Shown: positions 14,334 to 16,247 of the stretch, in pieces
Position numbering within the stretch: the first letter of the stretch is position 1
Layout: the number at the start of each line of letters is the position of its first letter
Assembly: GCF_019297835.1 (NCBI RefSeq)
Contig: NZ_CP079203.1
Span: 2,267,001-2,331,000, forward strand
Origin: Sphingomonas sanguinis
GTDB taxonomy: Bacteria; Pseudomonadota; Alphaproteobacteria; Sphingomonadales; Sphingomonadaceae
Direction of reading: 5' to 3'
DNA length: 64,000 bases
The notes under the pieces: model-generated
What the model was told of the DNA's origin: nothing
The model's input: the letters and a program-made list of their open reading frames with translations, nothing else
Database searches by the model: none
Made by a program: the position numbers and the translations under genes

Positions 14334-16247
14334 TCACTCCGCCGGAAGGTAAACCTCCCCACCCTTCTCACGGAACCGCTCGCTCATTTCCTGCATCCCC
14401 GCCTCGGCGTCCTCGGCCGCGACGAAGGTCTCCACCGGCGCGTTTTGCTTGGCCGCGAATTCCCGAGGTTCGGGATCGCGACCTGCCCCCAGCAGGTCGC
14501 TATTTGCTGCGCGAGACGCAGCAAATTCCCGAACCTCCTGCGTGATCTTCATCGAGCAGAATTTCGGGCCGCACATCGAACAGAAATGCGCGGTCTTGGC
14601 GCCTTCCGCAGGCAGCGTCTGGTCGTGGTAGGATTCCGCCGTGTCGGGGTCGAGCGACAGGTTGAACTGGTCGCGCCAGCGGAACTCGAAGCGGGCGCGG
14701 CTCAGCGCGTCGTCGCGCATCTTGGCGGCGGGGTGGCCCTTGGCGAGGTCGGCGGCGTGGGCGGCGAGCTTGTAGGTGACGACACCGACCTTCACGTCGT
14801 CGCGGTCGGGCAAGCCCAGATGCTCCTTGGGCGTGACGTAGCAGAGCATCGCCGTGCCGTACCAACCGATCATCGCCGCACCGATGCCGCTGGTGATATG
14901 GTCGTACCCCGGCGCGATATCGGTCGTTAGCGGCCCGAGCGTGTAGAAGGGCGCCTCGCCGCACGCCTCCAGCTGCTTGTCCATATTCTGCTTGATCTTG
15001 TGCATCGGCACATGGCCGGGGCCCTCGATCATGACCTGCACGTCCTGCGCCCAGGCCCGCTTGGTCAGCTCGCCCAGCGTGTAGAGTTCGGCGAACTGCG
15101 CCTCGTCATTGGCGTCGGCGATCGCGCCGGGGCGCAGGCCGTCGCCCAGCGAATAGGCGATGTCGTACGCCTTCATGATCTCGGTGATCTCGTCGAAGCG
15201 TTCATAGAGGAACGACTCCTTGTGATGCGCCAGGCACCATTTCGCCATGATCGAGCCGCCGCGCGACACGATGCCGGTGACGCGCTTCGCGGTCAGCGGG
15301 ATGTAGGGCAGGCGCACGCCCGCATGAATGGTGAAATAGTCGACGCCCTGCTCGGCCTGTTCGATCAGCGTGTCGCGGAATATCTCCCAGGTCAGCTCCT
15401 CGGCGATGCCGCCGACCTTTTCCAGCGCCTGATAGATGGGGACGGTGCCGATCGGCACGGGCGAATTGCGGATGATCCATTCGCGCGTGTCGTGGATGTT
15501 GCGGCCCGTCGACAGGTCCATGACCGTGTCCGCGCCCCAGCGGATCGACCAGACCAGCTTGTCGACCTCGGAGGCGACGTTGCTGGCGACCGCCGAATTG
15601 CCGATATTGGCGTTGATCTTGACCAGGAAGTTGCGGCCGATCGCCATCGGCTCGGATTCGGGGTGGTTGATGTTGTTGGGGATGATCGCCCGGCCGCGCG
15701 CCACTTCGTCGCGGACGAATTCGGGCGTGACGTAATCGGGGATGCTCGCGCCGAAGCTCTCGCCGTCGCGGACATATTCGCGCAGCATCTCGCGGCCCAG
15801 ATTCTCGCGGGTCGCGACATATTCCATCTCGGGCGTGATGATGCCTTGGCGGGCATAGTGCATCTGGCTGACGTTCATGCCTGCACGCGCGCGCAGCGGA
15901 CGGTTCAGCCCGGTGCGCGGGAATTGCGGCACGCCGCCCGAACGGTCGGGGCCGAGCTGGCCATTATCCTCGGGGCGGATTTCGCGGCCGTCATAAGCCT
16001 CGACATCGCCGCGCCCCTCGATCCAGTTGCGGCGGATCTGGGGCAGGCCCGCCATGATGTCGATGCGCGCGGTCGGGTCGGTATAGGGGCCGCTGGTGTC
16101 GTACACGCGCAAGGGCGGTTCGCCCGAGGACGGGTCGAGATGGATTTCGCGCATCGCGACGTTCAGCGGGCCGACGTGAATCTTCTTCGAGCCACGAATG
16201 GGGCCGGTGGTCACGCCGATTTCGGCCTTTGCGGGGATATCTGCCAT
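14334..16247 (-). CDS. thiC: Phosphomethylpyrimidine synthase ThiC
   Basis: A 637-residue radical-SAM enzyme that converts aminoimidazole ribotide to hydroxymethylpyrimidine phosphate for thiamine synthesis. The family core is complete, including [10 protein letters not shown], and the C-terminal iron-sulfur motif [11 protein letters not shown] (CxxCxxxxC). ATG 16247 has GGAG nine bases upstream; the frame upstream lies in the riboswitch. After the cluster motif an extra 22 residues (66 bases, 14451-14516) interrupt the usual [10 protein letters not shown] sequence and repeat REFAA on both sides; the DNA is strongly palindromic. This is an in-frame insertion near the flexible C-terminus, probably tolerated. 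Confidence 0.96.
14451..14537. mobile_element. In-frame palindromic insertion element within thiC
   Basis: Three stems are visible: an outer 10-bp stem (14465-14474 with 14528-14537, GAGGTTCGGG against CCCGAACCTC), a 9-bp hairpin (14478-14486 with 14492-14500) and a 10-bp hairpin (14502-14511 with 14517-14526, loop CGAGA). Linkers are only one to three bases, giving a compact three-way junction of 73 bases. Sixty-six bases are extra relative to the normal ThiC sequence, and the flanking codons encode the same five residues (REFAA) twice. It resembles the palindromic elements that enter coding regions in Rickettsia. No transposase is encoded. Confidence 0.7.

Follow-up and report, generated by a model that had tools for sequence, protein, structure and literature searches.

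How does a short palindrome come to interrupt a conserved housekeeping gene in frame, and to what kind of DNA does it belong? This question is raised by the thiC gene of Sphingomonas sanguinis, which lies within the 64,000-nucleotide stretch of contig NZ_CP079203.1 that was analysed here (assembly GCF_019297835.1, positions 2,267,001 to 2,331,000; henceforth the window). In-frame invasion of genes by palindromic repeats is best known from Rickettsia, whose palindromic elements (RPEs) were reportedly described by Ogata et al. in 2000 and 2002.

The palindromic insert in thiC

The gene (14334..16280, minus strand) encodes a phosphomethylpyrimidine synthase of 648 amino acids, as judged from its open reading frame and from matches to NCBIfam NF006763/TIGR00190 and Pfam PF01964 (the Pfam match ending at residue 582), and it is the single thiC match in its own genome (G000). 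A TPP riboswitch lies 5′ of thiC (16296..16386, minus strand; Rfam RF00059, 61.1 bits) and probably represents ordinary regulation of the host gene. By eye, two small adjoining genes are seen before thiC, at about 13183-13692 of the window; we take this pair to resemble a toxin-antitoxin system of the YefM/YoeB type.

An earlier note on this DNA had claimed a 66-bp in-frame insertion adding 22 residues to ThiC, and comparison with six relatives bore this out: these possess 98–99% identical ThiC (L031–L036) in which the sequence REFAAKQN runs uninterrupted and thus represent empty sites, against which thiC shows a net gain of 66 nt, or 22 amino acids, in frame. The insert is located directly behind the radical-SAM domain of ThiC, just after a motif that presumably has a role in the cluster. 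As the 66 nt maintain the reading frame and contain no in-frame stop, thiC is read through and the predicted ThiC gains a 22-residue loop.

The element itself is a 73-nt three-way junction (14465..14537, minus strand, as are all of its parts), defined by its fold and a covariance model. Read in gene sense, it begins with the 5′ arm of the outer stem (14527..14537), which matches the native thiC codons for EVRE according to the fold and the empty-site comparison. This is followed by hairpin 1 (14502..14526; fold, covariance model and covariation), which has 10 bp and a 5-nt loop, encodes FAASRAAN and uses native-like FAA codons of thiC as its 5′ arm. Hairpin 2 (14478..14500; fold and covariance model) comprises 10 bp with a G-U closing pair and a GGG loop and encodes SDLLGAGR, and the 3′ arm of the outer stem (14465..14475; fold) encodes PEP together with flanking bases. 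Folded as the plus strand, the outer stem has 11 bp (14465-14475 with 14527-14537) and the hairpins have 9 and 10 bp, with spacings of 0–2 bases; in gene sense an extra G-U pair extends the first of these (hairpin 2), so that both have 10 bp. The three-way junction of 73 bases with hairpins of 9 and 10 bp therefore stands as described earlier, whilst the outer stem has 11 rather than 10 bp and the spacers span 0–2 rather than 1–3 bases.

The fold lies well beyond chance: the 106-nt stretch analysed has a minimum free energy of −55.6 kcal/mol compared with −33.7 ± 3.2 kcal/mol in 200 dinucleotide shuffles, none of which was as low (z = −6.9), and a sliding 80-nt fold of the window (3196 overlapping segments) places the element as the third strongest separate fold site. 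The covariance model matches at 14467-14535 with 96.2 bits; an identical sequence is in the model's training set. No Rfam match was obtained over the element in the window or in L064, nor over the repeats in L040, L049, L051 and L056. The insert in the window is confirmed: it is a palindromic repeat that forms a three-way junction and lies in frame within a housekeeping gene.

The motif REFAA, which the earlier note had seen on both sides of the insert, is indeed present twice, encoded by a direct repeat of 15 nt and 87% identity flanking the element (gene-upstream copy 14518..14532, gene-downstream copy 14452..14466, both minus strand; self-comparison). An insertion with duplication had been proposed on these grounds: the direct repeat is there, but the duplication reading is ambiguous, since the left arms of the palindrome (those on the 5′ side of the outer stem and of hairpin 1) coincide with EVREFAA codons native to thiC. 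With regard to the hallmarks of a MITE, terminal inverted repeats are present as the 11-bp outer stem, and the candidate target-site duplication is the 15-nt repeat, one copy of which overlaps the palindrome.

Left arms identical to native thiC codons are not predicted by plain transposition, and since one side of the palindrome consists of the host's own codons, local fold-back copying followed by thiC recombination has to be treated as a serious rival. A nascent strand would here fold on the EVREFAA codons and copy backwards, leaving an inverted and a short direct repeat; hairpin 2 would join later, spread would occur only within thiC alleles, and there would be no mobile three-way-junction element. 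In support of this, the component sizes sum to 66 (loop 5 + arm 10 + spacer 1 + hairpin 23 + spacer 2 + arm 11 + repeat 14), and in L027 and L246 the native 5′ outer arm is mismatched to the 3′ arm. However, inspection by eye of 150 thiC tails (a set in which G076 is present twice, as L096 and L146, and for which L067 yielded no tail) revealed none with the fold-back but without hairpin 2. Together with the copies outside thiC described below, this speaks against fold-back copying, which we judge rather unlikely but the main rival.

Distribution, covariation and exchange of the insert

A thiC search detected the gene in 147 of 151 genus genomes, and amongst the 141 thiC 3′ ends inspected from these 147 the element occupied the site seen in the window in five (G000, G120, G042, G086 and G076). 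A covariance search of 295 genus genomes afforded matches in 23 at E ≤ 0.01: the element lies in thiC in 11 (G000, G120, G086, G042, G235, G236, G221, G245, G274, G076 and G162), in a decayed thiC fragment in G196 and G011, and as a complete three-way junction outside thiC in G131, G091 and G090, with weaker partial matches in seven more (G095, G128, G037, G293, G012, G279 and G003). As 17 candidates were scored per genome, the element counts at genome scale are lower bounds. A search of 298 family genomes, with the own genus among them, gave matches at E ≤ 0.001 in five (G000, G131, G403, G404 and G330); G403 and G404 contain thiC copies of the element in two other genera, and the G330 match (L247, 33 bits with the R1 element model) was rejected as ordinary coding DNA by eye. 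Of 150 genomes sampled from the phylum at large, the own genome alone matched at E ≤ 0.01; the remaining 149, a few of which belong to the same genus or family, gave no match. Within the own genome, neither the DNA search (26 matches, those outside thiC at E 0.059 or worse) nor the model search identified a second copy.

A protein search with the insert region (182 candidates of 0.55–1.75 times the query length) returned 32 proteins, all with a ThiC domain, 15 of which carry the RAAN insert, including that of Novosphingobium sp. ZN18A2. The search of plasmid DNA retrieved one record, the thiC of S. parapaucimobilis YK209; this insert-bearing gene (L027, NZ_CP155755.1) resides on a 201-kb replicon labelled as a plasmid.

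In the copies examined the insert reads in frame, with the exception of the G196 remnant and of P0014, the tail of which is apparently frameshifted behind the insert, and one insert peptide recurs. Both observations would be expected if the 22-residue loop were a selected addition to ThiC, a protein-level function that we nevertheless consider extremely improbable: the peptide follows from the palindrome; the variants NSGHPGDGR, NSLLPGAEG and NSLYPGDTG alter the peptide, with the first two (for which the DNA was seen) retaining the fold; the solved ThiC structures that were matched, from four relatives, display no counterpart to the insert in the alignment shown; and the same hairpin is found in IleRS and CysRS. 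A structure prediction for ThiC (21-row alignment) gave a mean pLDDT of 40.9 and was unusable.

We next turn to the conservation of the palindrome at the DNA level. In an alignment of 13 copies (12 from thiC and the thiC remnant of G196), 95.0% of cells pair and 13 of the 29 pairs change on both sides, with 46 such cells compared to 17.2 ± 3.3 in shuffles; slid controls of this alignment gave 0–4 two-sided pairs. With non-thiC copies added, two-sided change was seen in 23 of 29 pairs over 18 rows, two of which are reverse-strand readings of copies already present. Both alignments were fitted to the model and are therefore biased towards the structure; an unfitted alignment of eight copies showed two-sided change in 9 of 29 pairs (22 cells compared to 8.5 ± 1.9). 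The structure is conserved across copies of the element and the sequence is not: hairpin 2 exists in the versions GACCTGC, GGCCATCC and CTTCTGCC, and hairpin 1 in at least four. A further alignment (family B, A3) aligned badly, and no second model was made.

Compensatory changes are present in all three helices, the GGG loop of hairpin 2 is retained in 12 of 13 copies of the 13-copy alignment (A4) and thiC is under riboswitch control, all of which could be taken to indicate that selection maintains the hairpins for a role in the thiC mRNA, be it in its stability, its translation or its processing by RNase III. Covariation alone, however, need not mean selection, as strand-switch correction of imperfect palindromes would have the same effect without it. 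Given also the rarity of the element amongst the 141 thiC tails, the lack of an Rfam match over it and the persistence of the palindrome in the decayed G196 copy, we regard an RNA-level function as very improbable.

In a thiC tree of 40 rows, from which the tail was left out, the 13 insert carriers need at least nine changes, seven of which are forced by well supported branches; L027 (YK209, with the insert) and L036 (G137, without it) are sister sequences with a support of 100/98. Shuffling the insert label over the tree gave a mean of 11.1 changes, with 44 of 500 shuffles as low as the true arrangement, and the insert is thus scarcely clustered on the thiC tree. This patchy distribution is nonetheless no proof of transposition, because exchange of thiC is seen in G196 and G011. 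G196 has a thiC 3′ end that lacks the insert and is undamaged over the 282 codons seen, and about 0.5 kb downstream of it a decayed 0.3-kb thiC fragment (L065), 76% identical, in which the palindrome is well formed and nearly perfect; G011 (L101) has an intact thiC and, some 0.7 kb further downstream, a second thiC tail that has decayed together with its element. These remnants, which were spotted by reading and checked by self-comparison, appear to be the footprint of thiC allele replacement, and they accord with the spread within thiC alleles that fold-back copying would entail.

The same fold and hairpin 2 outside thiC

All 14 whole-element matches of at least 50 bits (12 from the genus search and two from the family search) are located in thiC or a thiC remnant, and hairpin 1 is confined to thiC: both facts fit with fold-back copying. 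Against it, complete three-way junctions were found outside thiC in G131 (L098/L125), G091 (L099/L111) and G090 (L100/L110), with scores of 39–48 bits. L098–L100 have the outer stem GTTCGAG and the hairpin GACCTGCYGGGRGCAGGTC, i.e. the same hairpin 2, in common with the thiC element, whilst hairpin 1 differs; the weaker matches L102–L109 mostly consist, by inspection, of the outer stem and one such hairpin. The earlier note had held that the same fold at unrelated sites would support a mobile palindromic element, and these three loci, together with hairpin 2 in ileS and cysS, give a positive answer.

Hairpin 2 is a module common to ileS, cysS and other repeats. An exact pattern of its 19-nt core occurs at 24 places in 23 of the 295 genus genomes, compared with none for the reversed control: five places are in thiC (by coordinates), nine in ileS, one in cysS, three in three-way junctions and six in other composites or hairpins without an assigned gene. 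In ileS (nine genomes) and cysS (one genome) the hairpin is in frame; the IleRS/CysRS identity was assigned through NCBIfam for L115, L132 and L113, and the remaining ileS copies were named by shared sequence. Placement of copies as intergenic is a judgement, since most loci are without gene annotation, and open frames cross several of the composites. A second version of hairpin 2, GACCATCCGGGGGATGGTC, is found in ileS of L296 and has its thiC counterpart, GGCCATCCGGGGGATGGAC, in L064. As at least two co-varying versions are thus present in both thiC and ileS, one of them also in cysS and composites, the hairpin 2 module appears to travel. In the window AATA and GATC border the hairpin, whereas many other copies have ATCA, ACCA or AACA on its 5′ side.

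A pattern scan of 84,980 species with GCGACCTGCTNNNRGCAGGTCGC identified 13 contigs, five from Sphingomonas and eight from elsewhere. At least five of these eight are terminator-like, and the hairpin 2 core alone can therefore arise by convergence, although the convergent cores elsewhere show neither the density nor the flanking likeness seen in the genus Sphingomonas. Several candidates were discarded: L079 and L082–L085 by inspection, being terminator-like hairpins with the same core, and L072 (G096) as ordinary coding DNA by eye without a three-way junction; L073 and L080 likewise look like coding DNA. L075 was without a BLAST match, and L078 (Sphingomonas sp. BN140010), a locus that is not part of the model set, contains a 33.3-bit match to the R1 element model at 6139-6187.

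Landing sites, known repeats and origin of the insert

Further palindromic families occupy, in frame, a second site in the tail of ThiC, located after xFLAA; these, as well as the families in IleRS, were named by eye according to their peptide motifs, all of them loose: one resembling PPRxGEGD..GGGG (L040, L049, L134, L160, L190, L209, L242, L244 and L146), one with PLPLAGG or PVPLAGG (L144, L152, L158 and L235) and one with PVRPELVEG (L204). In L209 and L244 the hairpin 2 peptide SDLPGA is present at this second site. The thiC tail of G236 (L064) contains three palindromic elements, one nested in another repeat: the nested element is a further three-way junction, with an outer stem and hairpins bearing CCC and GGG loops, which again speaks against fold-back copying. 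A perfect stem of at least 9 bp was detected in 11 of 141 thiC tails, one of which (L171) falls outside all of the named second-site families, as opposed to none of 141 equal stretches just upstream. In IleRS, such a stem was found in the loop after QWFIPMD in 18 of 50 loci and in none of the 50 stretches upstream, in a sample biased by its choice (50 loci from 99 matching genomes, of which 30 ranked best against a query that bears an insert and 20 were picked by hand). The IleRS loop measures 15–56 residues in these 50 loci (L281–L330) and often contains palindromic repeats of several families. Several families of palindromic repeats have thus landed repeatedly in the ThiC tail and in the IleRS loop, a point that goes beyond the earlier note.

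In light of these results, we hold it to be reasonably probable that the insert is a member of a population of small sphingomonad palindromes that occasionally insert, with the frame preserved, where a loop of a conserved protein can tolerate them. In favour of this count a fold beyond chance, empty sites in near relatives, covariation, the same fold outside thiC, the hairpin 2 core in ileS and cysS and the lack of a match in the 149 other phylum genomes; against it count the single copy in the own genome, the confinement of the whole-element matches of at least 50 bits to thiC and its remnants, the left arms made of native codons, the patchiness that thiC recombination alone can produce and the convergent hairpin 2 cores in unrelated bacteria. 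We envisage that a hairpin-bearing single strand or replication intermediate would insert at a thiC sequence resembling the outer arm (GTTCGRGA), whereby one of the arms of the palindrome would be supplied by thiC codons; copies may then spread through recombination of thiC 3′ ends, and they may be lost when slippage between the two 15-nt repeats removes them or when the allele is replaced. Insertion of an arm-like element fits with the outer stem common to the loci outside thiC and is favoured over fold-back copying, and we regard the insert not as a functional domain but as DNA, selfish or neutral, that ThiC tolerates. The Y1 (REP-type) transposase PF01797 was not found in the own genome and is present in two of 17 element-bearing genomes, where the stretches around the Y1 transposase genes gave no match to the R1 element model.

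More tentatively, the Sphingomonadaceae may possess a modular set of palindromic cassettes. Their hairpins would covary, recombine and become nested, with as many as three elements in a single ThiC tail, and would insert in frame time and again into the same places in essential enzymes (the ThiC tail and the IleRS loop after QWFIPMD), with host codons as one arm; if this were true, protein loops would be built from selfish hairpins with the reading frame kept. Already as observed, free-living bacteria here exhibit Rickettsia-like behaviour: empty sites occur naturally, alleles are numerous and two housekeeping enzymes have been entered repeatedly at particular codons, through which movement without a recognised transposase, frame keeping and hairpin DNA as a possible source of loops become testable.

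How, then, does the element relate to known systems? RPEs are described, in the parts of the sources available, as palindromic DNA found in frame in unrelated conserved genes and read into protein, as well as between genes (PMC2229807, PMC10969869), with a length of 105–146 bp (PMC2229807). The in-frame insertion is alike, with the whole element in thiC but only the hairpin 2 module in other genes (ileS, cysS); RPEs however are multi-copy in a genome where a single copy of the thiC element was found, and at 69–73 nt the three-way junction from the Sphingomonadaceae is shorter, a comparison made with RPEs by description only. The same kind of likeness, judged by title only, extends to protein-coding palindromic repeats of Wolbachia and Methanocaldococcus jannaschii (reference list of PMC2229807), i.e. 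outside Rickettsia. The earlier note had named the Rickettsia type as precedent: that the element works like an RPE appears a fair description, given the three junctions outside thiC, hairpin 2 in ileS and cysS and its absence from the 149 other phylum genomes, whilst RPE identity is not borne out, membership being judged by description only.

As regards REPs, the available text of Di Nocera et al. 2013 (PMC3733652) describes hairpins of 20–40 nt or dimers of these with an unpaired tetranucleotide tag, with stems of 5–13 bp for GTAG and 8–9 bp for CGTC REPs (Table 1 therein); CGTC REPs, without a dedicated transposase, are given for S. wittichii and S. chlorophenolicum, and intragenic REPs for tRNA synthetases of X. 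oryzae, E. litoralis and S. alaskensis. The likeness lies in short hairpins within coding DNA, tRNA synthetases included; the thiC element differs from what is described there in that it is untagged, is closed by an outer stem and sits at one fixed codon of thiC. An alphaproteobacterial host, palindromes in frame in unrelated housekeeping genes and the REPs known from sphingomonads (PMC3733652) might suggest a true RPE or a member of the tagged GTAG/CGTC REP families. This is scarcely credible to us: neither the element nor hairpin 2 ends in an unpaired GTAG or CGTC tag, the stems of 10–11 bp exceed the 8–9 bp reported for CGTC REPs in PMC3733652 (the 10-bp hairpin stems falling inside the GTAG range), and the element is shorter than RPEs, single-copy and from a genome without a Y1 transposase match.

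A literature search, in which coverage of subscription journals was limited, found no report of palindromic ThiC inserts or of this element, and thiC is not named among the listed text matches of PMC3733652. The earlier note had known of no report for ThiC in this lineage; intragenic palindromic repeats of sphingomonads, tRNA synthetases included, have been in print since 2013 (PMC3733652); an untagged family and the ThiC and IleRS hot spots were not found in the available text of that paper. The element would accordingly extend a known but rare palindromic invasion of proteins to a new bacterial group, and the interpretation given in the earlier note is, overall, partly supported.

MITEs and RAYT-mobilised REPINs, the latter linked to a Y1 transposase gene in the genome, are further classes for comparison. 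The outer stem of the thiC element resembles terminal inverted repeats; on the other side stand the absence of a Y1 transposase match from the own genome and the ambiguity of the candidate target-site duplication. The own genome is rich in palindromic repeats although the thiC element is single: it contains 297 CCTCCCC(N3-9)GGGGAGG hairpins, compared with two for the reversed control, and at 23 of 30 such loci no open frame runs for some 100 codons on both sides. Many of these hairpins are paired about 85–115 bp apart (100 places listed), in which they are similar to REPINs, and one REPIN-like composite of paired CCTCCCC..GGGGAGG hairpins with inner hairpins occupies positions 10400-10516 of the window, where the genes on its two sides appear to converge.
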